Shown here: in pieces, positions 22,330-41,294 of the stretch
Layout: the number at the start of each line of letters is the position of its first letter
Position numbering within the stretch: position 1 is the stretch's first letter
NCBI GenBank assembly: GCA_024239075.1
Contig: JANBVI010000021.1
Span: 1-42,059 of the forward strand
Direction of reading: 5' to 3'
Length of the DNA: 42,059 nucleotides
From: Fischerella sp. CENA71
Lineage (GTDB): Bacteria > Cyanobacteriota > Cyanobacteriia > Cyanobacteriales > Nostocaceae
Notes under the pieces: generated by a model
The model's input: only the letters and a program-made list of their open reading frames with translations
The model's database searches: none
What the model was told of the DNA's origin: nothing
Position numbers and translations under genes: made by a program

Positions 22330-23490
22330 TTAATCTACAGTTGCAATTGTCTTTACTTTAACCTGCTGTTTCGGAAATTCCCGGTTAGCTACAATCTCGC
22401 CAAAGGGACTTAATACTTGCGGTTCTAAGGTTTGTTGATTCTCTAGAGGTAAAAGTGGGAATAGTAATTCTGCTACTCGATACGCTTCTTCTAAGTGAGG
22501 ATACCCAGAGAAGATAAAGGTATCGATACCTAACTCGGTATACTCCAGCATTCTCTTGGCAACAGTATCAGGATCACCAACTAATGCAGTCCCGGCACCA
22601 CCCCGCACTAAACCAATTCCTGCCCACAAATTTGGGCTGATTTGCAAAGCTTCCCGACTGCCGTTGTGTAAGTCTTGCATCCGGCGTTGTCCTTCCGAGT
22701 CCATGCGTGAGTAAGCTTGTTGGGTTTTGGCGATCGCTTCATCATCTACGTAGCGAATCAAATCATTGGCTGCATCCCATGCTTGACTTTCGGTTTCCCG
22801 GACAATTACATGGAGGCGAATACCAAAGCGTAATGTTCTGCCTTCTGCTTCTGCCAGTCGTCGCACCGAAGCAATCTTTTCGGCAACTTGTTCTGGCGGT
22901 TCACCCCAAGTTAAGTACACATCTACGTGTTTAGCGGCAATCCGCTGGGCGATGGGTGAAGAACCGCCAAACCATAATGGTGGATGTGGCTTCTGTACTG
23001 TTGGAAATAGCAACTTACCACCTTGAATATTAAGATAATCTCCCTGGAAGTCAGCAATTTCCCCTGCTGCGATCTGCCGCCACACCGTCAAAAATTCATC
23101 TGTTAATTCGTAGCGATCGTCATGGGAAAGATGCAAGCCATCCCCCGCTAACTCTACAGGATCGCCACCAGTGACGACGTTAATCAACAATCTACCACCG
23201 GATATGCGATCAAACGTTGCTGCCATCCGGGCCGCTACCCCTGGTGACATCAACCCCGGACGAATCGCTACCAAAAATCGCATTCTTTTAGTATGTGTTA
23301 CCAAGGTAGAAGCCAATATCCAGGCATCTTCACAAGAACGACCTGTAGGTAATAATGCCCCTGTAAAACCCAAATGATCCACGGCTTGGGCAATCTGCCG
23401 CCAGTAATCAAAGTTGACTGCCCGTCCCCCGATGGCAGTACCAAGATAGCGCCCTTCACCGTGAGTCGGAATAAACCAAAGTAGCTGCAT
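22330..23490 (-). CDS. ssuD: Alkanesulfonate monooxygenase
   Basis: The 386-residue luciferase-like enzyme uses reduced FMN and O2 to release sulfite from alkanesulfonates, so the cell can use organosulfur as a sulfur source. Family stretches are [20 protein letters not shown] at the start, [56 protein letters not shown] and [20 protein letters not shown]. Length fits the family (about 380). A conserved inverted repeat ends 42 nt before the start codon. The reductase partner lies downstream. Confidence 0.93.
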
Positions 23491-23532: not shown

Positions 23533-23560
23533 TTACGGCAAATCTATCGGTATACCGTAT
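23533..23560. promoter_or_regulatory. Operator site 1: TTACGGC-N14-ACCGTAT
   Basis: This is one of four matching 28-bp inverted repeats in the sulfur region. It lies between ssuD (42 nt away) and the divergent TPR gene (289 nt away). Inside it, CGGTATACCG (23548-23557) is also a perfect palindrome. The rest of 23491-23849 has no gene. Confidence 0.65.
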
Positions 23561-23849
23561 TATTTTATTTACTTCAGAGTATCGCACAGGCAATTAGGTT
23601 AACGCAATACCTTTACAAAACTAAATACTGTTTATCTATCAATTTACAGTAGTTAATTTGTTGTTATTTTTGGAATGGTGTGACATACTTAATATTAAAT
23701 ACACTATTCCGACCGAAATATAGTACTTAAATCCTGGCGATTATAAATCTCAGCTATACAAACAAAGTCTGCTGATGCGGACTTTATTAATTAGCCTGCG
23801 TAGTCCCAGAATTTCAGTCTGCGGGGATTTTTGGTGTGAGGAATTAATA

Positions 23850-25100
23850 ATGCGAAAAGATTCACAAGGACTAGTAGTTACAACAGATTCGCCAGATGCG
23901 ATCGCAGCTATTAACCGCTTCATTGATCAAGCACTTTCTTATGGCAAAGATGCAGAAATAGCGATTTTGCAAGCAATCACAGCAGATCCAACTTGTGCTT
24001 TAGCCCATACCTATGCTGCTGCTTATTATCTTTCCCAGGAAAACAAGATAGCTTGGCAGCAAGCGCAACCCCACCTGCAAGCAGCACAAAAGCATTCAGC
24101 TAATATTACCGACAGAGAGCAATTATATGTGCAAGCAATTTTAACTTGGGCAAATAAAGAGATTGATGTGGCGATCGCCTTCCACGAAGAGATTACCAAC
24201 AAATTTCCCCATGATTTGATTTCCGTACAGCAGGGACAGTATCACTATTTTTATTTGGGTGACAAAGAAAGATTATTACAAATTGCCCAAAAGGTTTTAG
24301 CTGTCAATCCTGAACATCATTATTTATACGGTATGGTTGCGTTTGGTTTAGAACAATGCCATCAACTAGCAGCAGCAGAAGCAATGGCACGCAAGGCAAC
24401 AGCTATGAATCGCTATAATCCTTGGGCGCATCATGCCGTTGCCCATGTATTAGAAACTCAAGGGCGAGTGGATGAGGGTATCGCTTGGATGGAGAGTTTT
24501 GCTGATAGTTGGGAAAACTGTAACTCAATGCTGTATACCCATAACTGGTGGCATGTTGCCTTGTATTATCTAGAACGAGTTGACATAGAGAAAGTTTTGT
24601 CACTCTACGATATCCATATTTGGGGACGTGCCAACAAGCGATCGCCCAAAGATCAAGTCGGAGCAATTTCACTTCTATTAAGGTTAGAGTTACGCGGTGT
24701 GAATGTGGGTAGTCGCTGGCAAGAATTGAGTACTTATCTTTACCCTCGTATTCATGAACATGCTCTTCCTTTTCAAGACTTGCATTACGTTTATGCAATG
24801 GCTAAGGCAGGATTTACGGATTGGGTAAACCAAATGTTATTGAGTATGGAACAACATGCCCTAAGTATAAATCCTTTTTTACGACAGGGCTGGATAGAAG
24901 TAGCAATTCCCGCAGCTAGGGGAATGGTTGCTCATGCCAAAAGTGATTTCAATACAGCAATAACGCAACTCAAACCTGTTTTGCCACGCTTGCATGAGAT
25001 TGGTGGTAGTCATGCCCAGCGAGTTTTGTTTCAACAGGTTTATCAAGATGCGCTATTGCTGGCAGAAAAGCAGAGTTGGATTTATGGGATCACTGCTTGA
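23850..25100 (+). CDS. TTC38-like tetratricopeptide repeat protein
   Basis: From ATG 23850 the product has 416 residues. A frame extension to 23775 exists, but GAGG lies 8 nt ahead of 23850 and the extension looks non-coding. Repeated helical hairpins are visible, for example AILQAITADPTCALAHTYAA, LYGMVAFGLEQCHQLAAAEA and NPWAHHAVAHVLETQGRVDE, the last being close to the TTC38 family. Such proteins are scaffolds and no catalytic residues are evident. It diverges from ssuD and shares the intergenic operator, so a role in organosulfur use is plausible but unproven. Confidence 0.75.
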   Translation: MRKDSQGLVVTTDSPDAIAAINRFIDQALSYGKDAEIAILQAITADPTCALAHTYAAAYYLSQENKIAWQQAQPHLQAAQKHSANITDREQLYVQAILTWANKEIDVAIAFHEEITNKFPHDLISVQQGQYHYFYLGDKERLLQIAQKVLAVNPEHHYLYGMVAFGLEQCHQLAAAEAMARKATAMNRYNPWAHHAVAHVLETQGRVDEGIAWMESFADSWENCNSMLYTHNWWHVALYYLERVDIEKVLSLYDIHIWGRANKRSPKDQVGAISLLLRLELRGVNVGSRWQELSTYLYPRIHEHALPFQDLHYVYAMAKAGFTDWVNQMLLSMEQHALSINPFLRQGWIEVAIPAARGMVAHAKSDFNTAITQLKPVLPRLHEIGGSHAQRVLFQQVYQDALLLAEKQSWIYGITA

Positions 25101-25116
25101 TGGGATTGAGTTGGAA

Positions 25117-25944
25117 TTAACCGAAGCGCCCACTGATATACTCCTCAGCTTCTTTAGTTGTAGGAGTATTGAACATTTGTTCTGTAGGACTGAACTCGAC
25201 TAATTTACCACGACGTTTGCCATGCTCATCAATCTCTGTATTGAAAAACGCCGTCCAATCTGCAATCCTGGAAGCTTGTTGCATATTGTGAGTCACCATA
25301 ATAATGGTGTACTGTTCCTTAAGTTCCAAGCAGAGTTCTTCAACTTGACGAGTAGAAATCGGGTCGAGAGCAGAACATGGTTCATCCATTAACAATACAT
25401 CTGGCTTCATAGCGATCGCCCGCGCAATACAAAGCCGTTGCTGTTGTCCACCAGATAAAGCTGTACCCTTTGCCTTGAGCTTGTCTTTGACTTCATCCCA
25501 AATAGCAGCACGTTTGAGGGAATTTTCGACTAATTCATCAATATTACCTTTATAGCCATTAGAACGCGGGGCAAAGGCTATATTTTCGTATATTGACTTA
25601 GGAAAAGGATTTGGTCTTTGAAAAACCATTCCTACTTGTCGGCGCAATTTTACAGAATTGATTTTAGGATCATAAATATTGCGATCGCGGTAAATCAGCC
25701 TACCTTCTACCTTTGCTCCAGGAATTAAATCATTCATGCGGTTAAAGCAACGTAGTAGAGTACTTTTACCACATCCTGAAGGGCCAATAAAAGCAGTAAT
25801 TTGTTTTTGAGGAATTTTTAGATAAACATCCAAAAGAGCCAAAAAACCACCATAGTAGACCTTCACACCTTCAACATCAAATACAGCATCATCTTGTTGG
25901 TTAAATGTGGCATCTAATTGACTTCTACTGTTATGATAATTCAT
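25117..25944 (-). CDS. pstB: Pst-type ABC transporter ATPase
   Basis: The 275-residue ATPase has Walker [10 protein letters not shown] (about residues 54-62), the signature [20 protein letters not shown] and Walker [14 protein letters not shown]. Length and the ending [20 protein letters not shown] match PstB. It energises the PstC/PstA pore on the cytoplasmic side. It is the last gene of the sbpA-pstS-pstC-pstA-pstB run and ends 16 nt from the convergent TPR gene. No phoU gene follows. Confidence 0.93.
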
Positions 25945-26026
25945 CTTAATTCATCTCCAAATATTTATAAAACCTGGATTTAGACAGTTACTAATTATGC
26001 AATTAACTGTTTACTTGTCCTTCCAT

Positions 26027-26923
26027 CTAATGATAGAAGCGTTGACGAATATAAATTGCTAAACCATTTAAAGCCAAAACCAAGAGTATTAACACAATAA
26101 TTGTTGCTGCTGCTGCATTCGCAAAACCTGGTTCTGGACGACTAATGTAACTATAAATTTGAATGGGCAATGCCATAAATCTCTGGAACAAACCAGGATT
26201 AAAAGTCAGGAAAGCCACAGCACCTACTACAATTAAAGATGCTGCATCACCAATGGCACGAGATACAGAAATGATCACTCCTGTAAGGATACCGGGAATA
26301 GCATAGGGTATGACGTGATGGCTAACTGTTTGCCATTTAGTAACACCTAAGCCATAGGAAGCATATCTGAGGGAATCCGGAACTGCACGAATTGCTTCTC
26401 TCGCTGTCACAATAATTACTGGTAAAGACAACAAAGATAAAGTCAAAGCTCCGGAAATCAGAGTCGGGCCAAACCCAAGTAAATAATTGAAAACTCCTAA
26501 ACCCAACAATCCATAGACAATAGAAGGTACTCCCGCTAGATTGCTGATATTAATCTCAATAATTGCTGTCCACCAAGTTTTGGGTGCGTATTCTTCAAGA
26601 TATAAAGCCGCTCCTACGCCAATTGGTACAGTTATCAAAATGACGATTATTCCCAAAAGAATGCTGCTAACAATCGCAGGACGGATACCACCTTGATCAG
26701 GAAAACGAGAAGGAGTTTCAGTCAAAAATCCAGGTGACAAAAATCTACCTAATCCATCTCGTAAAACATCAAATAGTAACAACGTAAGGACAAATAAACC
26801 TATCAACAAACCTAATAAAAAAAGTAATTTAAAAACTTTTCCTATATTTTCTCTTTTGTCAACATTATCAGTAAATTCTGTTGGAGAAATTTGAGAATCA
26901 TCTCTTGGATAAATTGTAGCCAT
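26027..26923 (-). CDS. pstA: Pst-type ABC permease
   Basis: The 298-residue permease has about six helices and the binding-protein-dependent transport signature EAIRAVPDSLRYASYGLGVT near residues 176-195, with IPYAIPGILTGVIISVSRAI after it. It resembles PstA, with a start 6 nt after pstC ends. The ATPase PstB would dock on the EAI loop. Confidence 0.9.
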   Translation of the reverse strand: MATIYPRDDSQISPTEFTDNVDKRENIGKVFKLLFLLGLLIGLFVLTLLLFDVLRDGLGRFLSPGFLTETPSRFPDQGGIRPAIVSSILLGIIVILITVPIGVGAALYLEEYAPKTWWTAIIEINISNLAGVPSIVYGLLGLGVFNYLLGFGPTLISGALTLSLLSLPVIIVTAREAIRAVPDSLRYASYGLGVTKWQTVSHHVIPYAIPGILTGVIISVSRAIGDAASLIVVGAVAFLTFNPGLFQRFMALPIQIYSYISRPEPGFANAAAATIIVLILLVLALNGLAIYIRQRFYH

Positions 26924-26929
26924 GCCTAT

Positions 26930-27871
26930 TTACTCGTACTTTTCTTTAAAGCGATTAGAAATCCAGTAACTGACTATATTTAAAGCCAGGGTAATCAGAA
27001 ACAAAACAGCACCTACAGCATATAAAGTCTGGAAATTAAGACTACCACGCGGACTATCTCCACCAGAAATTTGTGCCATGTAAGCCGTCATTGTTTCTAC
27101 CGACTCTGCAAAATTAACAGTCAGTTTTGGCTGTTGTCCGGCGGCAATGAGAACAGTCATAGTTTCACCAACAGCGCGAGAAATACCCAAAATAATTGAG
27201 GCTGTAATTCCAGAAAGAGCAGCTGGCAGAACAACTTTAAAAATGGCTTCTAGTTTGGTTATGCCTAAAGCGTAAGCGCCTTCTCGCAAAGAACGTGGAA
27301 CTGAGCGAATCGCATCTAAACTAATAGAACCAACTGTAGGAGTAATCATGATCCCCATCATCAACCCCGCACTCAAAGCATTGAAGATTTCCAGAGGGAT
27401 AAAATTTCGCAGCAATGGTGTGACAAACAACAGCGCAAAGTAACCATAGACAACCGTGGGTATTCCTGCCAAAAGTTCTACAGCTGGACGTAAAATTGCT
27501 GCTACTTTGGGTTGGGCATATTCACTTAAATAAATAGCAGAAGATAAACCCAAAGGAATAGCAACTGCCATTGCAATAGCTGTAGTCAAAAAAGTGCCAT
27601 TAATCAGAGGCCAAATACCAAAATGCTGTTCTGCAAATAAAGGTGTCCATTTAGTATCAAGAAAGAATTGGGTAAGCGAAACTTTTTGGAAAAACTCAAA
27701 TGCCACCTGAAAGATAATTACGACAATTCCAAAGGTAGTCAGCACAGAAACTAAAGCACAACAAAATAAAATTGCTGCAACAATCTTGTCTTGGATATCT
27801 TCTGATGGGTGTTTCTCCAGTGAGTGCCTAGAGTTTTGAGAAAAACCGTTTTGAGGATTTATGCTTGTCAT
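26930..27871 (-). CDS. pstC: Pst-type ABC permease
   Basis: The 313-residue permease has about six helices, the loop DAIRSVPRSLREGAYALGIT that contacts the ATPase, and MTVLIAAGQQPKLTVNFAES typical of PstC. A perfect inverted repeat, TAGTGAA-TT-TTCACTA (27875-27890), lies 3 nt before the start and could affect its translation. No good ribosome binding site is visible. A palindromic insertion separates it from pstS. Confidence 0.9.
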   Translation of the reverse strand: MTSINPQNGFSQNSRHSLEKHPSEDIQDKIVAAILFCCALVSVLTTFGIVVIIFQVAFEFFQKVSLTQFFLDTKWTPLFAEQHFGIWPLINGTFLTTAIAMAVAIPLGLSSAIYLSEYAQPKVAAILRPAVELLAGIPTVVYGYFALLFVTPLLRNFIPLEIFNALSAGLMMGIMITPTVGSISLDAIRSVPRSLREGAYALGITKLEAIFKVVLPAALSGITASIILGISRAVGETMTVLIAAGQQPKLTVNFAESVETMTAYMAQISGGDSPRGSLNFQTLYAVGAVLFLITLALNIVSYWISNRFKEKYE

Positions 27872-27909
27872 AAATAGTGAATTTTCACTAGTACAAGGAG
27901 GCAGATTTG

Positions 27910-27988
27910 GTAGGGTGCGTTATAGACATTAGTCCTAACGCACCGGAATCTAGGATGGTGCATTGTGTTACGCGACAAAACACCCTAC
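27910..27988. repeat. Palindromic repeat within the pst operon
   Basis: GTAGGGTG (27910-27917) and CACCCTAC (27981-27988) form terminal inverted repeats. Inside are GGTGCGTTA (27914-27922) and TAACGCACC (27936-27944). This GTAGGGTGCGTTA family is widespread in cyanobacterial intergenic DNA. As a hairpin in the mRNA it could lower expression of pstC relative to pstS. Confidence 0.6.
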
Positions 27989-27991
27989 AAC

Positions 27992-28993
27992 TTAAATAAA
28001 GTTTGTGATTGGTTGACCTGGTTTTGCTTTTTTGAATTTAGTACCAGTTTCCCCAGCAGCAAATTTCTGTTTCGTTTTGACATAAGCTTCATCTGGTAGC
28101 GCTACATAACCAACACTGTCTACCCACTTCCAAGAATTTTCTAGATAAAAATTTACAAATTCTTTGACTGCTGGCTTGGTATCTATGGATTTTTTACTGA
28201 CATAAATGAAAAGGGGACGAGACAGTGGTGTGTAGATATTCTTTACAACATTGTCTACTGGAACTGGTTTTTCACACTTTCCTGTAGGGCTTTTGACCGC
28301 AACTAAATTGAGTTTATCTTGGTTTTGAATATAATAAGATATCCCGACATATCCTAAAGCTGATGGTTCTCCTGAGACTCCTTGAACAAGCAGATTTTGA
28401 TTGTGACTAGGAGTGTAGTCTGTACGACCATTTTTGGCTTTCTTTGTCACAGCTTGGGTAAAATAATCAAAGGTTCCCGTATCAGAAGCAGGAGCATAAA
28501 GTTTCAGCGGTTTATCAGGAAATTTGGGATTAACTTGATTCCAACTCAATATTTTGCCATCAGATTTGGCACTCCAAATTTTGTCAAGTTCCTTGATAGT
28601 CAAACATTTAGCAAAATTATTTTGGCGGTTAGCGATCACAGCAATTCCATCTAAGCCTATAGGTAACTCTATAAATTCAATATTCTTACTTTTACATCTA
28701 GCGATTTCTTCATCTTTAATAGTACGAGAAGCACCAACAATATCAATGTCACCAGCACAAAATTTACTGATTCCACCACCAGTACCACTAGAAGCAACAC
28801 TAACATTAGCTTTTGGTTCAACCTTCTCGTATTCTTCTGCAACTGCTAAAGAAATAGGAAAACCTACCGCTGCACCATCAATACTCACTTGACTTTTCTC
28901 TTCTTGGGCGCGATCGCAACCAGTTATACCGTAACTAATAAGCATCAAAAATGCCAGGAACAATTTACCCTGAAATCTCTTATAAAGCTTCAT
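27992..28993 (-). CDS. pstS: PstS/SphX-family substrate-binding lipoprotein
   Basis: The 333-residue protein starts with a lipoprotein signal (LFLAFLMLISYGITGCDRA, lipid-bearing Cys near residue 26). The binding domain has VASSGTGGGISKFCAGDIDI and VGASRTIKDEE, as in cyanobacterial SphX/PstS. The first ligand loop reads DGAAVGFPIS where related proteins normally have a Ser/Thr-rich DGSSTVFPI, which may change affinity or ligand. It follows the sulfate-binding gene after only 58 bp, with no Pho box or terminator seen in the gap. Phosphate is the default guess, but another oxyanion is possible. Confidence 0.85.
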   Translation of the reverse strand: MKLYKRFQGKLFLAFLMLISYGITGCDRAQEEKSQVSIDGAAVGFPISLAVAEEYEKVEPKANVSVASSGTGGGISKFCAGDIDIVGASRTIKDEEIARCKSKNIEFIELPIGLDGIAVIANRQNNFAKCLTIKELDKIWSAKSDGKILSWNQVNPKFPDKPLKLYAPASDTGTFDYFTQAVTKKAKNGRTDYTPSHNQNLLVQGVSGEPSALGYVGISYYIQNQDKLNLVAVKSPTGKCEKPVPVDNVVKNIYTPLSRPLFIYVSKKSIDTKPAVKEFVNFYLENSWKWVDSVGYVALPDEAYVKTKQKFAAGETGTKFKKAKPGQPITNFI

Positions 28994-29051
28994 ATGCTAG
29001 TAGCTAATATTAAATTTGCAAACAAAACTGCATTTACACTCTTCTGTCTTC

Positions 29052-30209
29052 TCACGCTTTCTTAGCAGCTTGAACTTTGTCAAAAATTGCCCCATCTCCA
29101 AAAAACTTTTTCTGGATACTATCCCAACCCCCTAAATCTAGAGCCGTGAATAAAGTTTGAATTTGGGGATATTGTTTTACCACTTCTTGACTAACAGTGG
29201 GATTAACAGAACGATATCCTAATTTGGCAAATTCGCGTTGGGATTCTGTGGAGTAAAGAAAATCAACAAATGCTTGTGCAACTTCTCTCGTGCCGTGCTT
29301 GTCAACGTATTTATCAACTACAGTTACAGGGTTGTCGATAGAAATATTTATTTGTGGTACTACATAAGGTAGTTTTGCCCCATTCTGTTCCGCTAAAATT
29401 ACCTCGTTTTCATAGTTAATTAAGACATCTCCTTGACCCTTTTGGAAAAATAAATCACTAGCTTCACGAGCATCTTTTGTTAATACAGGTGTGTTCTTAT
29501 AAACTTTGGTGACATAATCTAGCGCTGTCGCTTCGTCACCTCCTGTTTGAGTCACCGATCCCCACAAAGCCAAGAATTCCCAGATCGCAATACCAGAAGT
29601 TTTTGGGTTAGCAGCAATCAGTTTCACGTCATTTTTTGCTAAGTCTTCCCAAGTCTTGATGCCTTTAGGATTACCTGCGCGGGTTACAATCGCGGCTACG
29701 GATCTACTGACAACACCATTTCTCGGAGCTTTAATTTCCCAACCTGGTTTAATCAATCCTGCTTGTTGAATTTTGTTGACATCTAGGGAAAGTGCCAGAT
29801 GTACGATATCTGCTTCTTGCGAACCTGCAATCACAGCAGCCGTTTGAGTCCCAGAACCTCCATAACTCTGCTCAAAAGTGACGTTTTGGTTATGCTCCTT
29901 TTTCCACTTTTCCACAAATTTGGGAATAATCTGGTCATGAGCAGCTTTAGTTACAGAGTAGGAAACGAGCCTAAGTTTGACATCAGGCTTGGTAGCTAAA
30001 CTACTTCCACAGGCAGCAACTGCCATACTCAAAACCACGCCTACTAAAAATAGACAGGCAAATCTTGGCACAGAGCTTCTATTCAACCAACTTCTGATTA
30101 TTCGGTGATACGAAACTTGTACAGCCTGCCAAGCTTTCACAACATAAGTCTGTATTCGCTCAATTCGGTAAGCTTCAAATTGTAGCGGATGTTGCGACTT
30201 ACTCATCAA
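29052..30209 (-). CDS. sbpA: Sulfate/thiosulfate-binding protein
   Basis: The 385-residue periplasmic protein has an unusually long basic leader (about 50 residues) before the hydrophobic core FACLFLVGVVLSMAVAACGS, which ends in a lipobox (Cys near residue 67). Family motifs are FEQSYGGSGTQTAAVIAGSQ, ADIVHLALSLDV, NPKTSGIAIWEFLALWG and KGQGDVLINYENEVILAEQN. Sulfate permease genes (cysT, cysW, cysA) are absent here; instead Pst-type genes follow on the same strand. AGGGGGAAAG precedes the start, and a conserved inverted repeat ends 15 nt before the ATG. Confidence 0.92.
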   Translation of the reverse strand: MMSKSQHPLQFEAYRIERIQTYVVKAWQAVQVSYHRIIRSWLNRSSVPRFACLFLVGVVLSMAVAACGSSLATKPDVKLRLVSYSVTKAAHDQIIPKFVEKWKKEHNQNVTFEQSYGGSGTQTAAVIAGSQEADIVHLALSLDVNKIQQAGLIKPGWEIKAPRNGVVSRSVAAIVTRAGNPKGIKTWEDLAKNDVKLIAANPKTSGIAIWEFLALWGSVTQTGGDEATALDYVTKVYKNTPVLTKDAREASDLFFQKGQGDVLINYENEVILAEQNGAKLPYVVPQINISIDNPVTVVDKYVDKHGTREVAQAFVDFLYSTESQREFAKLGYRSVNPTVSQEVVKQYPQIQTLFTALDLGGWDSIQKKFFGDGAIFDKVQAAKKA

Positions 30210-30224
30210 ACTTTCCCCCTAAAT

Positions 30225-30252
30225 CTACGGCATTTTGAGCGGGATACCGTAA
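30225..30252. promoter_or_regulatory. Operator site 2: CTACGGC-N14-ACCGTAA
   Basis: This is the second copy of the 28-bp inverted repeat. It ends 15 nt before the sbpA ATG, directly upstream of its ribosome binding site, a position that fits a repressor. Compared on the minus strand with site 1, it also shares CGGTAT and CCG inside the spacer. Confidence 0.65.
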
Positions 30253-30414
30253 TCTAAAGTATTATAGAGCAGTAGAACAAGAGTTCTTATCTGCCTTTAT
30301 CTTTTGTTACTAATTGAGCAATTAATGATTAAATTATTTGCTTAAATAGTCAAAATATGTATAGAAAAAATACCCCACTTGGCGATATGCTTGGCGGGGA
30401 TGGAGCTTGAAGAG

Positions 30415-30606
30415 GACACGGAGACACAGAGACACCTCATAGCTAAAGCTAGGGAGTCCCGGAGCCTCCGGCTAAGGAGGGACGTGGATTCAAGTAAGGA
30501 ACCGATTTTTCGTCTCCACGACTAAAGTCGGGGGCTTGCAACCAAGTGCTTCGATCTTGAGAAAGGTCGCGCTCCGCGTCTCCCTCTCTCCGTGTCTCCG
30601 CGTCTT
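30415..30606. repeat. MITE-like composite repeat
   Basis: GACACGGAGACAC (30415-30427) is matched near the far end by GTGTCTCCGCGTC (30593-30605), 12 of 13 bases in inverted orientation. Inside are the hairpins TAGCTAAAGCTA and CGACTAAAGTCG and a GGAGCCTCCGGCTAAGGAGG run. No transposase gene is present. It may be a non-autonomous element; subterminal hairpins of this type also occur in IS200/IS605 elements, but this link is weak. Confidence 0.5.
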
Positions 30607-30611
30607 CTTAG

Positions 30612-30956
30612 TCAAGATCCTGAATTTTCTTGGTGTCTTAGTGTCTTGGTGGTGAAAAATTCTTTTTGTTCACCCTTACCATACATCAAGGCATTATAGT
30701 AGTTGAACCAAAGTAGCAGATGTTCAGGGTTGAGTGAATAGCCAAGGAAGAAGCTATGCACAAAGCCGTAGCGATCGCGTTGTTCTTGGAAGAGTACTTG
30801 TACTTGTGGCGGTAGGGTTGCTTCGTCAGGCGCTTCTAACAAGGAGTTAGCCACCGTTTTCTTTTCTTGAACAGCTACTGTCTCTCGCTTTGCAGCTACT
30901 TTGGTAGAACGGTGTAAAATTTTGGTTTTGCGACTGTTCTTAGGCATAAAAATCAT
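30612..30956 (-). pseudogene. Truncated AhpD-like peroxidase-related gene
   Basis: From ATG 30956, just after the acyl-CoA dehydrogenase stop, the frame gives about 114 codons. After a basic low-complexity start, LPPQVQVLFQEQRDRYGFVH and SFFLGYSLNPEHLLLWFNYY match the N-terminal part of carboxymuconolactone-decarboxylase-like (AhpD fold) enzymes. The catalytic Cys-x-x-Cys region is missing, because the sequence passes into a repeat (FTTKTLRHQENSGS) and stops. Intact versions often accompany flavin monooxygenase genes of sulfur use. Confidence 0.6.
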
Positions 30957-30957
30957 T

Positions 30958-32166
30958 TTACAACCAGGGGTGACGAGGTGGATTGACGTTGTTGAGGAAG
31001 TAGTTACCGACAGCGTAGTATTTCCAACGTACAGGATCGTGTAATGTATGCGCTCTGGCATTCCGCCAATGGCGATCGTAGTTAAACTCTTGCAAGGTAG
31101 ATTTCGTACCTGCTAATTCAAATAACTTGTTAGTTGCTAACAGTGATGCTTCAGTTGCTAGTGCTTTGGCTTCAGCAACTGCAATGGAAGCTTCAACTAC
31201 CTTAGTTTCTTCTAAGCCAGAAGCATTTGCCTCATCAATAAACTCACCTGCACGTCGCAGTAATGCTTCGGCTGCATGAACCTGGATTTGGATGTTACCG
31301 AAGTTATAGATAGTTAGAGGATCTTCGTAACCATGTTCTAAATTACTATCAACCCAGGGGCGGGTATGATTGCGAACAAAGTAGATCGTGTCCCGGACAG
31401 CAGCTTTGGCAATACCAACGTCCACAGCTGCTTGAATAATCTGGGCTACAGCACCCATCGGTGTGGCACGCTCAAAGGCTAAGTAATGGGGAATCACATG
31501 TTCTGATTTAACCTTCACATTCTCTAGAATGGTTGTGCCGCTAGCAGTGGTTCTTTGCCCAAAGCTCGTCCAGTCATCAAGTAAGGTTAACCCTTCTGCA
31601 TCCCGTTCGACAAAAGCGATTACTGTTTTACCTTCATCATTAGCTGCAATCACTGGAATCCAATGAGCTAACAGCGCACCAGCAGAGTAGTATTTGCGTC
31701 CATTGAGGACGTATCCATCACCAGACTTTTCCAAGCGTGTCCGCACGTCGGTAACAGATTTAGTGCCAATTTCCGAAAAAGCATTACCAAACCGCTTGCC
31801 TTGCAATACCAAATCAAAGAAAAAGTGCTTCTGTTCTTCTGTGCCATCTAACCGGATGGCTTCTACCATATACAGGTGATTTTGGGGAATTTGTCCCAGG
31901 CTGGGATCTGCCTGCGAGATAATTTTGATGACTTCTGCTAGGGTAATATTGGATACAAATACTCCACCATACTCTTTGGGAACTGTGATACCCCACAAAC
32001 CACTGGCAGAAAACTTTTTTACTTCCTCATAGGGTAAATGCCGCTCTCTATCGCGACCAGAATCTCCCTTGGCGAATTCATCTGCTAATTGGTGAGCGAT
32101 CGCAATCGCTTCTGCATCACTAGTAATTACATGGGCTTGCTGCTCAGTACTAATCACAGTTGTCAT
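30958..32166 (-). CDS. SfnB-like acyl-CoA dehydrogenase family oxidoreductase
   Basis: The 402-residue flavoprotein has the acyl-CoA dehydrogenase fold: GLWGITVPKEYGGVFVSNIT (about residues 55-74), NAFSEIGTKSVTDVRTRLEK and KYYSAGALLAHWIPVIAAND in the middle, and the C-terminal DRHWRNARAHTLHDPVRWKY. This subgroup includes SfnB and DszC-type enzymes of organosulfur metabolism, which use flavin rather than CoA esters. It lies 49 nt downstream of sfnG on the same strand, which supports a dimethyl sulfone or sulfonate role. Confidence 0.82.
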   Translation of the reverse strand: MTTVISTEQQAHVITSDAEAIAIAHQLADEFAKGDSGRDRERHLPYEEVKKFSASGLWGITVPKEYGGVFVSNITLAEVIKIISQADPSLGQIPQNHLYMVEAIRLDGTEEQKHFFFDLVLQGKRFGNAFSEIGTKSVTDVRTRLEKSGDGYVLNGRKYYSAGALLAHWIPVIAANDEGKTVIAFVERDAEGLTLLDDWTSFGQRTTASGTTILENVKVKSEHVIPHYLAFERATPMGAVAQIIQAAVDVGIAKAAVRDTIYFVRNHTRPWVDSNLEHGYEDPLTIYNFGNIQIQVHAAEALLRRAGEFIDEANASGLEETKVVEASIAVAEAKALATEASLLATNKLFELAGTKSTLQEFNYDRHWRNARAHTLHDPVRWKYYAVGNYFLNNVNPPRHPWL

Positions 32167-32215
32167 AATTTTGTCTTCCTGCTTTGTATGTTTTTCGTGT
32201 GCGAGTAAGGCTCAC

Positions 32216-33310
32216 TCACACAGTTACTAACTCATCAGATATGCGACGATGTGCTTCAATTTCTTGCACCAAAGGAATAACTGTGCGACCGAAGGCGGAT
32301 AGGTCATCGCTATAGTGGAGGAAGCCACCGAGAATTAAATCTACTCCGACTTCGTAGTACTGGCGGATGCGATCGGCAACTTGTTCAGCTGTACCAATCA
32401 AGCCTGTTCTGAAGCCATCGTTGTACTGCACTAAGTCTTCAAAATTAGAATTTGCCCACATTCCCTGACGTTCACGGGTGGATGCTCCTGCATGTTTGAC
32501 TGCCGCTCCAAAGCCTTCAACAGCTTCTTTGTCTGCCTGAGCAATAATCTCTCGCAGTAGAGCATGGGCCTCTGCCTCAGTCTCTCGTACCAAAATAAAA
32601 GCATTCAGTCCAAACTTCACCTTACGTCCTTGTTGATGTGCTAGAGCCGATACTTCCTGAATCTGTTGCCGCACACCGTCGATAGTATTGCCATTCATGA
32701 AATACCAGTCAGATACGCGGGATGCCATGCGTCGCGCTGCTTTTGAGTTTCCACCTTGGAAAATTTCTGGGTGTGGATTCTGATTGACTGGTCTGGGCTT
32801 TACCCAACCACCATTAATGCGGTAAAAGTCGCCTTTGAAGTGGAAATCATCTTCTGTCCACATACCTTTCAGCACACGAATAAATTCCTCGGAACGACGA
32901 TAGCGTTCGTCATGATCTAACCAAGGTTCGCCATAAATTGTGAACTCGTCTTTAAACCAACCGCTAACGACATTCAAGCAGAAGCGACCATTGGAAATAA
33001 AATCTATTGTCGCCCCCATCTTGGCAACCACACCTGGATGCCACAGTCCTGGATGAACAGCAGCAATCAATTTCAGCCGCTCAGTAACTGGTGCTAAAGC
33101 TGCTACAGTAGAAAGTGCTTCTAACTGGTATTCTGCACCATAGCTAGCAATAAACCTAGCCTGGGCTAAAGCGTAATCAAATCCAACTTGTTCAGCAGTT
33201 TGAGCTAGTTGAGCGTTGTAATCGAAAGTCCAATCTGTACGTTGGGGAATTTTACTGACTACTAATCCCCCGCTAACGTTAGGAACCCAGTATGCAAACT
33301 TAATATCCAT
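32216..33310 (-). CDS. sfnG: FMNH2-dependent dimethyl sulfone monooxygenase
   Basis: The 364-residue luciferase-like enzyme starts FAYWVPNVSGGLVVSKIPQR, which is characteristic of SfnG. GATIDFISNGRFCLNVVSGW, YGEPWLDHDERYRRSEEF and IFQGGNSKAARRMASRVSDW follow. SfnG converts dimethyl sulfone to methanesulfinate with reduced flavin, which could come from SsuE encoded elsewhere in this window. The protein is cytoplasmic. Upstream lie the binding protein and permease genes, downstream SfnB, so a sulfur-scavenging operon is likely. Confidence 0.88.
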   Translation of the reverse strand: MDIKFAYWVPNVSGGLVVSKIPQRTDWTFDYNAQLAQTAEQVGFDYALAQARFIASYGAEYQLEALSTVAALAPVTERLKLIAAVHPGLWHPGVVAKMGATIDFISNGRFCLNVVSGWFKDEFTIYGEPWLDHDERYRRSEEFIRVLKGMWTEDDFHFKGDFYRINGGWVKPRPVNQNPHPEIFQGGNSKAARRMASRVSDWYFMNGNTIDGVRQQIQEVSALAHQQGRKVKFGLNAFILVRETEAEAHALLREIIAQADKEAVEGFGAAVKHAGASTRERQGMWANSNFEDLVQYNDGFRTGLIGTAEQVADRIRQYYEVGVDLILGGFLHYSDDLSAFGRTVIPLVQEIEAHRRISDELVTV

Positions 33311-33454
33311 GATTTCAACTCTGTATTGAAGTTGGATGATAAATTTCTCAAGTTACGTTTAATATGAATGAGCTAAACTCGCATTTTTTGATCATGGAGT
33401 TTTTGCCAAAATACAGTCTGATGATAATAACGAACACAGATAAACACCGATGAT

Positions 33455-34267
33455 TCATCTGTGTACATCTGTGGTCAATTTCCAAAACTCGCTGTAAATC
33501 TGCCCCAGTACTCTATAGTCTTCTAATTCAATTGTGGCAAAACGCTTAACTCCTACTCGTTCCATTGCCGTTTGTAGTTTTGCATCTGTTTGCAATAATG
33601 CCGACTGCATTTGCTCAATCAAAGGTTTACCTAAACGCTGTGCTACTACCAACGGTGGCATAGGAGATGGACCAAGTACTTCTATCACACGCAAATGTTT
33701 TGATAATTCAGGAAAGTTGCGTAATTCTTGTTCTAATACCACACTGTCAATCGCTGCACAGTCTGCTAATCCCTCAGTGATCCAGCGAATGGAACGTTGA
33801 TGAGAGGCTGATTGTATCGTCTTGCCAAAAAAATCTGAGGGATATCTTTCTTGAACTAACTTGTAGCGCAGCAAATTATAACCACTGTTAGAACCAAGGT
33901 CGTTATAGCATAGGGTTTTTCCTGCCAAATCTGCAAATGCTTTTATATTGCTATCAACATTGACAATCACATCTGCAAAGTAAATAGGACGGTTGTAATA
34001 TCGAGATGATTGCATCACAGGTGCAACCAATGTCTGTAATTGGTCTGAAATCACCTGACAGTATCGAATTAGCGGTAATCCACAAATAAATGCTAGGTCT
34101 ATTTGGTCTTGCAATAGTAGCGGATCTTCCAGAGGGTCGTATTCTCCTTGGTGTAGCTTTATTTCTAATCCTAAAACATGACTTAGATAAGCTGTAATTG
34201 CTTGGTAGAATCCGAACCAATTGGGAGCTAAGTAGGATACAGCACGCAGTTTTGGTAAGATAGTCAT
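33455..34267 (-). CDS. PhnD/SsuA-like substrate-binding protein
   Basis: I start at ATG 34267, which overlaps the stop of the upstream small gene (ATGA); the open frame extends to 34324 but that part lies inside the neighbour. The 270-residue product resembles PhnD-type phosphate/phosphonate ABC binding proteins: SYLAPNWFGFYQAITAYLSH, DQIDLAFICGLPLIRY, FADLAGKTLCYNDLGSNSGY and ITEGLADCAAIDSVVLEQEL. No signal peptide is visible, so it may be held at the membrane by the small TM protein. In this context the ligand may be a sulfone or sulfonate. Confidence 0.7.
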   Translation of the reverse strand: MTILPKLRAVSYLAPNWFGFYQAITAYLSHVLGLEIKLHQGEYDPLEDPLLLQDQIDLAFICGLPLIRYCQVISDQLQTLVAPVMQSSRYYNRPIYFADVIVNVDSNIKAFADLAGKTLCYNDLGSNSGYNLLRYKLVQERYPSDFFGKTIQSASHQRSIRWITEGLADCAAIDSVVLEQELRNFPELSKHLRVIEVLGPSPMPPLVVAQRLGKPLIEQMQSALLQTDAKLQTAMERVGVKRFATIELEDYRVLGQIYSEFWKLTTDVHR

Positions 34268-34500
34268 TCTTGTTCTACAACAGTGTGATGCTTGGAAACT
34301 TGTGTTATTTTCCGACCTGACCAATGAATGTATAAAAAGCCCAAGCTAGCAAAGGTCAACAGCATTATTCCAAAAACTGTCGTGTATGCTTTAGTGTGCC
34401 ACCATAGCCGCGCGATCCATGCAGCACCTTTTTTTGGTAACTTCCATAAATCATAGTTATTAACCCTTTTAGTCTTGTGGATAGTTTGGGCTAATGTCAT
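34264..34500 (-). CDS. Small single-TM protein
   Basis: The 78-residue protein has a basic N-terminus and one membrane segment (about residues 41-60, TTVFGIMLLTFASLGFLYIH). Its end overlaps the start of the binding-protein gene. It may be a membrane partner or the displaced anchor of that protein, which lacks its own signal. The family is not recognised. Confidence 0.5.
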   Translation of the reverse strand: MTLAQTIHKTKRVNNYDLWKLPKKGAAWIARLWWHTKAYTTVFGIMLLTFASLGFLYIHWSGRKITQVSKHHTVVEQE

Positions 34501-34593
34501 TTTGATTGCTTCCTTAAATTTAAATCCGGCAAACCGATAAACTTACAGTAGATTGTATAACAAATCATCCCGATTCGTCAAAACAACTTGACC

Positions 34594-35397
34594 TTAGCCC
34601 TTTACATAATTGGGATTCCACTGCAACCAGTAGTTTTCTAATCCTCTGGCAACGACATCTGCTAATTTTCCAAATAGGGCGTATAATAAAATACTCAAAA
34701 CTACCACATCGGTTTGCATAAATTCTCTAGCATTCATTGCCATATAACCAATGCCAGAATCAGCAGCGATAGTTTCTGCGACGATAAGTGTCAACCACAT
34801 AATCCCCAGAGAAAAGCGCACACCCACTAAAATAGAAGACATTGCCCCTGGTAAAATAATTCGCCAAAACAAACCCCAAGCATTTAAACCATAAATTTTT
34901 CCCATCTCAATCAATCCGGAATCAACGCTACGAATGCCGTGAAAAGTATTTAAATAGATGGGGAACATTACACCTAAAGATACAAGAAATAATCGAGCTT
35001 CATCACCGATCCCAAACCATAAAATCACTAGAGGAATTAAAGCTAAGTTAGGAATATTACGGAGCATCTGGATAGATGTATCTAACAATTTTTCGGCAAT
35101 GGGAGAAATGCCGTTAAGTAAACCTAAACCAAACCCAATACTTCCCCCAACTAAAAAACCCATAATAGCTCGTGTAGCACTAATGGTAATATTTCTAAAT
35201 AGTTCGCCTGTTTTTGCTAATTCAATCGCAGCACTGAATACACTGAGAGGGGCAGGTAAAATTCTTGTGGGAATTAAGCCAATAGAAGATAATAATTGCC
35301 ACACAGCAAGTATTGATATGGGTACAGCCCAAGGTATAAGTGACTGAATATGACGATTCTTTAAAAACTTAAACTGGAGTTTATTTTTTTTCATCAT
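34594..35397 (-). CDS. SsuC/TauC-like ABC permease
   Basis: From the ATG pair at 35397/35394 (GAGG just ahead) the product has about 267 residues and six helices. The start PWAVPISILAVWQLLSSIGL and the ATPase-contact loop GLIEMGKIYGLNAWGLFWRI are typical of nitrate/sulfonate/taurine permeases. A matching ATPase gene is not in this window, so it is either borrowed from elsewhere or the operon is incomplete. It heads the run permease, small TM protein, binding protein, SfnG, SfnB. Confidence 0.85.
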   Translation of the reverse strand: MMKKNKLQFKFLKNRHIQSLIPWAVPISILAVWQLLSSIGLIPTRILPAPLSVFSAAIELAKTGELFRNITISATRAIMGFLVGGSIGFGLGLLNGISPIAEKLLDTSIQMLRNIPNLALIPLVILWFGIGDEARLFLVSLGVMFPIYLNTFHGIRSVDSGLIEMGKIYGLNAWGLFWRIILPGAMSSILVGVRFSLGIMWLTLIVAETIAADSGIGYMAMNAREFMQTDVVVLSILLYALFGKLADVVARGLENYWLQWNPNYVKG

Positions 35398-35551
35398 ATG
35401 CCTCGAATTAAAATTTACACGGGAAGAGGAGATAATTTTCATAGGGTTTTGCGAACTTTATGAATAATGTTTATGAAGTACTGGCTGGAATTGCATATTT
35501 CGCAAATCTTGCATTTGTTAGCTCACCTTTGAGGAAATTTGTGATTTTAAA

Positions 35552-35687
35552 TCAATACGCTTCAGTTAAGATTTTGATTTCCCCTAGCCCCTATGAAAAT
35601 GGAGGAACTGGAGTCTTGAAGTCCCCCTTGTAAAAGTGAATTTAGGGGTGATTCAAAGATTTAATTGTACTAACTGAACCGTATTGA
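35552..35687. mobile_element. MITE-like element with 17-bp terminal inverted repeats
   Basis: TCAATACGCTTCAGTTA (35552-35568) and TAACTGAACCGTATTGA (35671-35687) are inverted repeats matching at 16 of 17 bases. The 136-bp interior has no gene. A target duplication was not resolved with certainty. It inserted between the permease gene and the remnant upstream. Confidence 0.6.
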
Positions 35688-35918
35688 ATTTTAACTTGTG
35701 AATTTTTGTTGAGAAAATAAATAGTTAATTATTTCATACATTTGAAACAATACTACCTATTTAAATTTGGTATTTTTGTTTGATTTATTGATCTATAATT
35801 GAGAATTGAAATTTTCTCAACTGCAAAATTGAGTTTTATTAATTAGGAAGTAAGGTGGGTAACTCCCACCTTGAGATGAGAGGAGTCTACTGTGGCAAAA
35901 ACTTGTAATTTAGGAATA

Positions 35919-36029
35919 TTAAGTAACGAGGGGTAATGCTTGATTAAGCGTCCAGTTACCGATATCTCGGAGTTTGTAATCTACGGTATCTTGTAGGGTA
36001 AAGATACGTAGATCCCGCCAGTAACGATC
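35919..36029 (-). pseudogene. C-terminal remnant of SfnB-like acyl-CoA dehydrogenase
   Basis: The minus strand reads DRYWRDLRIFTLQDTVDYKL and then RDIGNWTLNQALPLVT before a TAA. It matches the C-terminal end of the intact SfnB-like protein downstream (DRHWRNARAHTLHDPVRWKY). The rest of the gene is gone; upstream the frame stays open without recognisable sequence into operator site 3. A deletion appears to have joined a promoter to the tail of a second dehydrogenase gene. Confidence 0.7.
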
Positions 36030-36098
36030 AAAAAAGCAAAATATTCCATGGTATTTGTACCATAAACTTGTATAGTGATTTGATATGCTTTCAGATAA

Positions 36099-36126
36099 AT
36101 ACGGTAAATTGGTAGGATAACCGTAT
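36099..36126. promoter_or_regulatory. Operator site 3: ATACGGT-N14-ACCGTAT
   Basis: This copy has perfect 7-bp arms. It lies upstream of the dehydrogenase remnant and hence of the permease to SfnB run. No intact gene now starts directly beside it; on the plus strand an AAGGA and an eight-codon frame follow. Confidence 0.65.
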
Positions 36127-36204
36127 ATTGTTTATAGTAGTTTTACATAGTTAAAAACAAAATACAAGGATATTTTGTAAAAAAATGCAAAACTCAAAAA
36201 CCTT

Positions 36205-36444
36205 TTAACCCAATTCAAATCCCAAATTCTTCAATGCTTCCTGTAACCTATCCCGTCCTGATAAAGACTCAACAAAGCCCACTCGTTTAGTTGGGTATTC
36301 CGTCCAATCAACAGGGACATTCATCTTTTGGGAATTGTCAAAGGCTTTCATCACCTGATTGTAAAATGCGATCGCGCAATTATTGTTACCAGTCTGACAC
36401 TGGATTGAGAATAATTTCTTTAACGCAATCATCAAACACTTCAA
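36205..36444 (-). CDS. Hypothetical small protein
   Basis: The 79-residue frame is not recognised. The C-terminal half (VDWTEYPTKRVGFVESLSGR and RLQEALKNLGFELG) looks like structured coding sequence, while the N-terminus looks less so. No ribosome binding site is clear. It may be a fragment of a longer gene. Confidence 0.35.
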   Translation of the reverse strand: MKCLMIALKKLFSIQCQTGNNNCAIAFYNQVMKAFDNSQKMNVPVDWTEYPTKRVGFVESLSGRDRLQEALKNLGFELG

Positions 36445-36594
36445 AGTAAATCTATACGTTAAATGTATTCTGATACCAAAGTATTTTTATCTAACTTGTA
36501 ACAATCTTGTTTATTAACCTAAACTTAAACTAAAGTTAATCTATCAAGATTACGGATATTCTACTTAACATTCAGAATATCAGGAGTATAAGCA

Positions 36595-37113
36595 ATGAAT
36601 GTTATGTTCCTTACTTCCAATGATTGGTTGCATATAGGTTTTAGACTGGGGCTGGCAATGTTTGTAGGTTGCGTGATCGGACTTAACAGAGAGCGTAAGG
36701 GTAGACCAGCTGGGATGAGAACTTTTATGTTAGTGAGTATGGGTGCAGCGCTTTTTGTCATGATTCCATTACAAGCCGAGGGAGATAGTCCCTATGCAGC
36801 AACTAACGCACTCAGTCGCACTATTCAGGGAGTAACTACAGGAGTTGGCTTTCTAGGAGCTGGGTTGATTTTGCAGCAGTCTTCCACACCATCATCAGAT
36901 ACACCAAAAGTACGCGGATTAACTACCGCAGCTTCAGTATGGATTGCCGCAGCATTAGGAGCAGCGATTGGTTGTGGTTTATGGCAAATGGGTGTTATGG
37001 GAGCTTTGCTGACTTTAGTAACATTAAGTGGTGTAAAGCGTTTGCGAAAGTCAGTTAATTTAGCTACCAATAAAGAGTCAACAACATCACTTGCTGAAGA
37101 TATAGAAGATTAA
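36595..37113 (+). CDS. MgtC/SapB family membrane protein
   Basis: The 172-residue protein has about four to five helices and MgtC hallmarks: LAMFVGCVIGLNRERKGRPA (about residues 20-39), GMRTFMLVSMGAALF, TTGVGFLGAGLILQ and VRGLTTAASVWIAAALGAAI. The family is linked to growth at low Mg2+ and to membrane energetics, and its transport role is disputed. CAGGAG 8 nt ahead supports the start. The Glu-rich tail is short, and the C-terminal ACT-like domain of long MgtC proteins is absent. Confidence 0.88.
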   Translation: MNVMFLTSNDWLHIGFRLGLAMFVGCVIGLNRERKGRPAGMRTFMLVSMGAALFVMIPLQAEGDSPYAATNALSRTIQGVTTGVGFLGAGLILQQSSTPSSDTPKVRGLTTAASVWIAAALGAAIGCGLWQMGVMGALLTLVTLSGVKRLRKSVNLATNKESTTSLAEDIED

Positions 37114-37194
37114 GTTTTCTTACTTGAAATAGTGATCAACAAAATAGAACTTGATTTTTGCCGTCATGTATGAAAATATTTCTATAATCATCAA

Positions 37195-37222
37195 ATACGG
37201 TTTATCTATATATTGACCGTAC
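37195..37222. promoter_or_regulatory. Operator site 4: ATACGGT-N14-ACCGTAC
   Basis: The fourth inverted repeat lies in the gene-free stretch between mgtC and the convergent Rrf2 gene. A GTAAGGAG follows on the plus strand (37246-37253), but no gene begins there, so this looks like an orphaned promoter. A second inverted repeat (CATTAATC at 37308, GATTAATG at 37332) is nearby. Confidence 0.6.
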
Positions 37223-38840: not shown

Positions 38841-38881
38841 TATTTAAACGCCTCCATTGGCAAATATAACTACATTGCAAG

Positions 38882-38974
38882 TTATGCTAATGCGCCGGAA
38901 ATAGCTCCAAGTAAAAATCCAAATCCTGCCAAAGTTCCAAAAAATGTTACTTTCTTAAGCATGTTTCTACTCAT
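38882..38974 (-). CDS. 30-residue membrane peptide
   Basis: ATG 38974 lies 10 nt after the ATPase stop and opens MSRNMLKKVTFFGTLAGFGF followed by LLGAISGALA. Basic N-terminus and glycine-spaced hydrophobic helix suggest a single-span small protein, possibly a regulator of the ATPase. The ribosome binding site is weak, so translation would depend on coupling with the ATPase gene. Confidence 0.5.
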   Translation of the reverse strand: MSRNMLKKVTFFGTLAGFGFLLGAISGALA

Positions 38975-38984
38975 TGTGATTTAT

Positions 38985-41243: not shown

Positions 41244-41294
41244 TGTCAACCTCCTAACGATTCCTCAACTGCTTTTTAAAGAATTTAGTGGTAT

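Follow-up and report, generated by a model that had tools for sequence, protein, structure and literature searches.

Four copies of one long inverted repeat lie among sulfur genes in the genome of the cyanobacterium Fischerella sp. CENA71, which raises the question of whether these repeats are the operators of a sulfur regulon and which regulator binds to them. The stretch of DNA analyzed, called the window here, comprises 42,059 nucleotides of contig JANBVI010000021.1 (assembly GCA_024239075.1). A comparison of the window with the rest of its genome and with related genomes indicates that the repeat is likely the operator of a CymR-like Rrf2 repressor, free of an iron-sulfur (Fe-S) cluster, that serves a sulfur-limitation regulon in the Nostocaceae and in other families of the order.

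The palindrome in the window and in its genome

The repeat unit is a palindrome of 26 bp, in which two arms of six bases flank a 14-bp spacer (TACGGY-N14-RCCGTA). Its outline is TACGGTAWWYCGATNRAWWTACCGTA, of which the search pattern itself fixes the first five and the last five bases. The window contains exactly four copies (Table 1), all with the 14-bp spacing given in the original prediction, whose 28-bp coordinates add one free base on each side. A chance origin of the four was ruled out by 100 dinucleotide shuffles of the window, which yielded no match. Exact copies number six in the whole genome (7,465,651 bases, 7.47 Mb), and the four of the window are clustered within 14 kb. The fifth copy is inside an open reading frame (ORF). 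The sixth (contig C32, locus L038) has a nitroreductase-like gene on one side and, on the other, an ABC ATPase gene and an SfnB-like gene that it precedes.

Sites 1 and 2 are directly ahead of ssuD and sbpA, as had been predicted. Site 1 lies 24 bp past the first base of a GATACT -10 element and site 2 is 17 bp from the first possible start of sbpA, the probable ATG of which was read by eye at 30206. The spacers of these two sites share CGGNATACCGTA, but not the full CGGTAT claimed for them. Sites 3 and 4 agree with the predicted location in non-coding or decayed DNA, and no intact sulfur gene starts directly behind either of them in the window. The gene order that is intact at C32 survives around site 3 as remnants, so that site 3 has the look of a relic operator that lost its operon by deletion. 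The permease gene that comes next after site 3 may or may not be served by it. Of two degenerate copies scored with the matrix described below, the weaker (34525-34550) may be a chance match.

Distribution of the palindrome in related genomes

The census set consisted of 100 related genomes, that of the window included; 80 named loci and one plasmid search reached beyond order-level relatives. Exact copies with the 14-bp spacing numbered 113 and were present in 56 genomes, compared to 132 for spacings of 12 and 13 bp together (mean of 66) and 143 for spacings of 15 and 16 bp together (mean of 71.5), so the 14-bp spacing is in excess over its neighbors. The context census covered 105 of the 113 copies and left out eight from genome G054. 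These eight exact matches hardly differ from one another and have a GC-rich spacer; they probably represent a dispersed repeat with no connection to the regulon.

Forty-nine of the 105 sites were at most 70 bp upstream of a start codon and 26 were 71-400 bp upstream, while 22 were inside ORFs (at least 100 amino acids) and eight were at other intergenic positions. The control comprised 36 matches with other spacings, hand-picked from listed matches out of 275 counted; 33 were inside ORFs and two of the other three were within 70 bp of a start. The ORF rules differed slightly between the control and the full census, and one site (L018) counted as ORF-internal under the former rules but as intergenic under the latter. 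The sites fetched first were chosen by eye with a preference for AT-rich spacers, and the 13 listed sites omitted at that stage were examined later (nine of them are inside ORFs). A repeated mobile element was rejected as an explanation because the spacers vary between sites while many sites hold a short distance to the start codon.

The genes downstream of the 75 upstream sites were assigned through phmmer comparison with references, the majority of them typed by Pfam or NCBIfam. The nearest gene was sbpA at 23 sites, ssuD at eight, a second type of ssuD at one, cysA at six, ssuB at four, SsuA at three, and a sulfatase, a NIL-domain and a PBP-like gene at one each. The remaining 27 sites were ahead of genes that include GST (three), MFS (two), LysR, MgtC, SBP56-family, O-methyltransferase and unidentified genes. 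The scan of the 100 genomes did not find the pattern at random positions or without a link to sulfur genes: 75 of the 105 sites had a start codon within the 400 bp downstream of them, and at 47 of these 75 the closest downstream gene was of the sulfate, sulfonate, sulfatase or NIL-domain type. The prediction of a sulfur regulon is supported by this distribution but, in their present state, not by sites 3 and 4 of the window.

Near ssuD-like genes, two loci (L086:5028-6679 and L087:5061-6712) contain a tandem pair of related proteins of about 270 amino acids, 340-350 bp from an exact site. A Pfam scan of the two L086 proteins gave no match.

The 32 sites used to train a scoring matrix, before the full census, were each at most 70 bp from an ORF of at least 150 amino acids, and none of them was at rrf2-B, the Rrf2 paralog discussed below. 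When the 32 sites were oriented to their genes, 29 had A at position 7, and the center was A or C (24 and 7 sites) followed by T or C (21 and 10 sites). The interior of the motif is roughly symmetric and near TACGGTAWWTCGATCGAWWTACCGTA.

Position of the sites relative to predicted promoters

A promoter of the form TTGnnn-N16..18-nAnnnT, with its -35 element at -54 to -44 from the first base of the site, was predicted for 21 of the 49 close sites compared to 2.3 ± 1.5 in shuffled sequences (maximum of 7 in 200 runs), in a test whose paired elements and position window were designed after inspection of the same sequences. The window ssuD promoter (23607-23578) is among the 21 positives; no such promoter was found for the other 28 sites. 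A test for a single -10 hexamer was negative (15 of 32 sites, 14.1 in shuffled sequences). In a second group, which includes the window sbpA, a strong -10 hexamer is 15-16 bp ahead of the site (six hexamers). The operator comes after the predicted -10 element in both promoter groups and, thus, would be in the place of a repressor. Repression at the palindrome, which had been guessed from site 2, is supported by this position after the predicted promoters.

If the predicted promoters are right, many sites would fall in the 5' leader, as would be expected if the palindrome were an RNA hairpin acting as a riboswitch-like element. An RNA element was rejected because a tRNA (6574-6646) was the only Rfam match in the window, and we consider it very improbable. 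The copies at rrf2-B hold their position in the examples though one arm is degenerate, and site 4 is behind two convergent genes.

Candidate regulators

The original prediction had proposed the Rrf2 protein, along with LysR-type regulators of the same genome, for binding tests. Rrf2 paralogs of four groups (A, B, C and D) were considered. The palindrome occurs at genes for sulfur uptake and cysteine formation and in the intergenic regions between rrf2-B and cysE. For 26 of 30 distinct rrf2-B genes, cysK or cysE is no more than two genes away, and the CysK and CysE representatives scored above NCBIfam cut-offs. Adjacency to cysK was seen for paralogs A and B; paralog D, the one in the window, is not beside cysK. 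An alignment of rrf2 upstream regions that was built without the motif revealed it as two copies, which are about 91 bp apart in L160, L164, L165, L166, and L172. Matrix scores above 5 bits were obtained within 330 bp upstream of rrf2-B at 65 of the 79 usable named loci (one of the 80 fetched lacked a recognizable start), several of which belong to genomes of the census so that the two sets overlap. Forty-nine of these matches were exactly 47 bp from the same codon, and 40 shuffled palindromic matrices gave a mean of 0.2 loci and a maximum of two.

The 80 named loci contained 127 matches above 9 bits. The nearest downstream gene was rrf2 for 53, NIL-domain for 23, CysR-like for 19, TauE/SafE for 11 and LysR for five, with one representative of each class typed and the others judged by one N-terminus per length class; 11 matches were inside ORFs and five belonged to other classes. 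In genome G079, an exact site is 126 bp upstream of another rrf2-cysK pair.

Genome profiles, which ignore the kinship of the genomes, showed that each of the 33 genomes with sulfur-gene sites encodes a close Rrf2 (E ≤ 1e-30) and that the 17 genomes lacking one have no such site (Fisher 6e-4). The 33 genomes were listed by hand; G025 was omitted, as the only genes behind its sites are an mgtC-like one and, near cysK, one without an assignment. Among the other candidates, CysR-like was present in 31 of the 33 genomes, LysR in 22 and Rrf2-B in 22. The profiles and neighborhoods support Rrf2 as the best fit among the three families profiled (Rrf2, LysR and CysR-like), and the acting protein would be one of paralogs A, B, C and D.

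Membership in the Rrf2 superfamily was evident from Pfam Rrf2 (110.2 bits; cut-off 30) and TIGR00738 (102.9 and 111.7 bits; cut-off 73.3). The scores for the CymR equivalog of NCBIfam were 100.7 bits for the window Rrf2 and 94.4 bits for Rrf2-B, below the cut-off of 195 bits, so the protein is not filed as CymR. The recognition-helix motif IPxRYLE(Q/E) was found in 63 of 66 Rrf2 proteins and the three-Cys Fe-S motif in none of the 66 distinct proteins. The start of the recognition helix is common to the paralog groups, which fits a shared operator without proving it.

An alternative is that the palindrome is bound by a LysR-type regulator, encoded next to CadD-like genes, which would activate the targets or control its own gene, and that Rrf2 is a mere neighbor. 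Sites of 12.6-26.9 bits are 28-69 bp upstream of LysR genes in L155, L167, L170, L173, and L174, and an exact site is 26 bp upstream of LysR in L091. Sites ahead of LysR occur in six genomes (G000, G008, G014, G021, G047, and G053), and an rrf2 gene follows LysR on the same strand in G008, G014, G021, and G053. LysR was nevertheless rejected as the binder, and is unlikely, because it is not present wherever sulfur-gene sites occur: an ortholog (E ≤ 1e-60) is missing in 11 of the 33 genomes. In addition, a site downstream of the predicted -10 element is unsuited to a LysR activator, and the usual LysR site, T-N11-A, does not resemble a palindrome of 26 bp whose outer arms are under strong constraint.

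A little less likely than LysR is a CysR-like Crp/Fnr regulator, a relative of the sulfur regulator of Synechococcus elongatus. CysR is described as a regulator of the sulfate uptake genes of S. elongatus (PMC12016511), and the 19 matches nearest to CysR-like genes are mostly 4-11 bp away from them in the examples; a single representative has the Crp helix-turn-helix in Pfam. The CysR-like protein was rejected because it is missing (E ≤ 1e-25) in two of the 33 genomes, G027 and G030. Both genomes have retained a site ahead of cysA, and G027 also one ahead of sbpA, at distances of 26-29 bp; neither LysR nor CysR-like was detected in them at the thresholds used. By the predicted promoters, the operator is in the position of a repressor whereas CysR acts positively, and the conserved halves of the palindrome are 19 bp apart whereas Crp-type half-sites are about one turn apart.

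That some further regulator binds the site is slightly less probable again. Rrf2 binding is predicted only and three families were profiled, but no further regulator family was identified among the recurrent neighbors, of which representatives were typed.

Methionine salvage and phycocyanin

A one-mismatch scan of the genome of the window detected 16 sites, 10 of them with one mismatch. Of the nine one-mismatch sites scored, three reached at least 20 bits and six were at 8 bits or lower. The three strong sites are ahead of a LysR gene, a set of mtn genes, and a cpcB-cpcA pair. The second of these (L373; C64:397031) precedes by 25 bp what is probably an mtnD-mtnX-mtnB operon for methionine salvage, in which MtnX was typed by NCBIfam below the equivalog cut-off, MtnD had no match, and MtnD and MtnB were named by eye from their sequences. 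The third is 117 bp ahead of cpcB and cpcA (L367:862-1383 and 274-765; C5:96681-97199 and the adjacent gene).

The CpcB and CpcA proteins scored above the NCBIfam phycocyanin cut-offs and contain no internal methionine and two and one cysteines, respectively, a composition that we take to be that of the sulfur-limitation phycocyanin of Calothrix PCC 7601. Sulfur-limitation phycocyanin is a textbook example of a protein whose composition has been edited to save sulfur; phycocyanin 3 (cpc3) of Calothrix/Tolypothrix PCC 7601 was reportedly described by Mazel and Marliere in 1989. Among the 30 best cpcB loci, one of which (L390) has a doubtful ORF, CpcB lacks internal methionine at eight, that of the window genome included. 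A site above 5 bits was present within 600 bp upstream of cpcB at four of these eight loci compared to none of the 22 others (Fisher 0.0026; rank test 0.08). At three of the four positive loci (L375, L377, and L379), the site is 12-14 bp past a TTGTNT-N17-(C/G)ATACT promoter read by eye. Nothing relevant on the phycocyanin operon was seen among the matches listed from the open-access literature, as far as their accessible text goes.

Weighing of the evidence and proposed model

Several observations weigh against an Rrf2 operator, among them the overlap of the locus sets and the kinship of the genomes mentioned above. The reversed pattern used as a control was commoner than the palindrome in the 100 genomes (157 compared to 113); the case, therefore, rests on position and context, as the raw counts do not exceed this control. 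With one mismatch, the reversed control also was commoner in the window genome (41 compared to 16). Twenty-eight of the 75 upstream sites are ahead of genes without an obvious sulfur role or identity. The sites at rrf2-B are degenerate, with only 20 of the 79 loci above 14 bits compared to 65 above 5 bits, and seven of the 30 distinct rrf2-B genes have no matrix match upstream. Rrf2-B is absent (E > 1e-50) from 11 of the 33 site genomes, so other paralogs would have to act there, and scans of loci with the more widespread Rrf2-A showed no motif in the promoter of that paralog. Rrf2-B also is lacking in three of the four phycocyanin positives (G012, G025, and G033), and no sulfur gene of G033 has an exact site. 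CysR-like, for its part, is missing in only two of the 33 site genomes. Finally, the nearest full orthologs of the window Rrf2 (82-83%; L121 and L122) have no exact site within 8-12 kb on each side. Linkage to orthologs of the window Rrf2 alone was rejected for this reason, and the case moved to the wider Rrf2 family. Two weaker sites are near the close ortholog in L122.

The cysK and cysE neighborhood, the CymR-like, cluster-free protein, and the repressor position make a CymR-type switch the simplest model. The sequences show the palindrome, its conservation, its placement and which genes adjoin it, whereas binding by Rrf2, the paralog involved, repression, the CysK/O-acetylserine signal and a response to sulfur are predictions. 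When cysteine is sufficient, an Rrf2 dimer, possibly with the cysteine synthase CysK, would cover the 26 bp just past the -10 element and block RNA polymerase. When sulfur is short, with O-acetylserine high and cysteine low, Rrf2 would release the operator. Proteins for sulfate uptake, alkanesulfonate use and methionine salvage, the sulfatase and the NIL-domain protein would then be made, together with the rrf2/cysK/cysE hub, further regulators (LysR and CysR-like) and, in some strains, a sulfur-sparing phycocyanin.

Other features of the window

The genes and remnants around the four sites are collected in Table 1. The nitroreductase remnant has an intact relative in L115 with a Pfam Nitroreductase match. 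The arrangement of the TPR gene divergent from ssuD, with its own degenerate site, is the same in another genus (L099). In L122 (genome G020; 7729, 15489-17824), ssuD has a weak site 38 bp upstream and the TPR gene is in two pieces, near a close rrf2/mgtC pair. A short inverted repeat, GAACT-N2-TGTTC (30275-30286, minus strand), is upstream of the -10 element in window-type sbpA promoters, was also seen by eye in L082 and L117, and may be the site of another regulator. Further decay in the sulfur region is evident from a gene remnant at 30669-30845 (63% identity over 59 residues to the intact L093:10525-11166). Cupredoxin and PacS-type P-ATPase genes (38271-41249) have 88% DNA identity to a Brasilonema octagenarum plasmid (CP030122.1), and 21457-21603 has 88% identity to Tolypothrix/Microchaete plasmid stretches annotated as ISKra4 transposase, as hypothetical or not at all.

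Table 1. Palindrome copies, genes and gene remnants in the sulfur region of the window
Feature	Coordinates	Strand	Context or basis
Site 1	23534-23559		Exact palindrome, 32.9 bits; 44 bp upstream of ssuD (-)
Site 2	30226-30251		Exact palindrome, 30.0 bits; between TATAAT -10 (30266-30261, -) and sbpA ribosome-binding site
Site 3	36100-36125		Exact palindrome, intergenic; between nitroreductase-like and sfnB-like gene remnants
Site 4	37196-37221		Exact palindrome, 25.6 bits; intergenic, between mgtC-like (+) and rrf2 (-), downstream of both
Degenerate copy, TACTGT-N14-ACAGTA	23626-23651		19.3 bits (matrix); 92 bp from site 1, 123 bp ahead of TPR gene at 23775 (+)
Weak degenerate copy	34525-34550		14.6 bits (matrix); in gap ahead of PhnD-like gene
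Predicted ssuD promoter	23578-23607	-	-35 TTGCGT (23607-23602), 18-bp spacer, -10 GATACT (23583-23578)
NADPH-dependent FMN reductase, downstream of ssuD	21618-22190	-	Pfam
ssuD, FMNH2-dependent alkanesulfonate monooxygenase	22330-23490	-	Above NCBIfam cut-off
TPR-repeat protein, divergent from ssuD	23775-25100	+	Weak Pfam TPR; synteny
Rest of sbpA cluster: PBP-like protein, two permeases, ATPase	25117-28993	-	Pfam; order kept in L082, L092, L117
sbpA, sulfate ABC transporter substrate-binding protein	29052-30209	-	Above NCBIfam cut-off
sfnB	30958-32166	-	Above NCBIfam cut-off
Luciferase-like monooxygenase	32216-33310	-	Pfam
PhnD-like binding protein	33455-34324	-	Pfam
Permease	34594-35442	-	Pfam
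SfnB-like remnant (acyl-CoA-dehydrogenase type), last 40 codons	35913-36032	-	tblastn, 80% to intact L038 gene
Nitroreductase-family remnant, C-terminal part	36211-36396	-	tblastn, 87% over 55 residues to L038
MgtC-family gene	36595-37113	+	Pfam; MgtC/Rrf2 pair also adjacent in L049, L122
Rrf2-family regulator, CymR-like, paralog D, without Fe-S cysteine triad	37442-37882	-	Pfam, NCBIfam; PDB neighbors 4CIC and 2Y75 (CymR)

Relation to known systems and significance

The closest parallel is CymR of Bacillus subtilis and Staphylococcus aureus. Among NCBIfam equivalogs, it gave the candidate Rrf2 proteins their best score, and it is among their nearest PDB sequences; like it, they have no Fe-S motif. 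Several of the rrf2 copies adjoin cysK, and the predicted targets, with a repressor geometry, are sulfur uptake and cysteine synthesis. In Bacillus, CymR is reported to be the DNA-binding partner and CysK to sense O-acetylserine (PMC2940859, PMC2869319). The candidates differ in their scores (94-101 bits compared to the equivalog cut-off of 195), the organism, the target set and the several paralogs per genome, and a CysK complex is only postulated here. The Fe-S members of the family (IscR, NsrR, RirA and RsrR) also have long operators, with a consensus of 23 bp given for NsrR (PMC9338935), but have other targets and the three-Cys cluster motif that the proteins studied here lack. CysR of S. 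elongatus PCC 7942, likewise a regulator of cyanobacterial sulfate uptake genes, belongs to another protein family, and the CysR-like gene is here a probable target. In plastids, a motif predicted before the sulfate transport genes cysT and cysA, for which a repressor was suggested, is an unrelated 10-bp single box, TAAWATGATT (PMC3773388). The phycocyanin subunits of the window genome resemble those of cpc3 of PCC 7601 in their lack of internal methionine and few cysteines; the upstream operator is a new element, known here from the cpcBA genes of the window genome and from loci of its relatives.

Sulfur starvation is reported to induce sbpA-cysTWA in Synechocystis, and the 2008 microarray study in that organism described a common mechanism for the repression of sulfur genes and the activation of sulfur scavenging as still undetermined (PMC2491639). 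From the parts of the literature consulted, we judge sulfur sensing in cyanobacteria beyond S. elongatus to be poorly known. The operator was not described among the matches listed from the open-access literature, a search that has most subscription journals outside it. With no description of the operator among these matches, and with CysR and the induction of sbpA-cysTWA known, we regard the predicted palindrome regulon as new and its mechanistic kind as known.

Judged from its sequence context, the palindrome is probably where a cysteine-sensing repressor binds, and is a candidate for a long-missing sulfur switch. It is possible, though we hold it to be a little short of probable, that a CysK-linked, CymR-like Rrf2 is the long-sought sulfur sensor of filamentous cyanobacteria and that one type of operator coordinates sulfate and sulfonate scavenging, methionine salvage, and the swap to a methionine-free phycocyanin. 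A defined operator and named candidate proteins make sulfur sensing in cyanobacteria directly testable, and the operator offers a mechanism for the classic sulfur-limitation phycocyanin. Control of the sulfur-sparing antenna protein would be surprising if true; nutrient sensing would then directly remodel the light-harvesting antenna.

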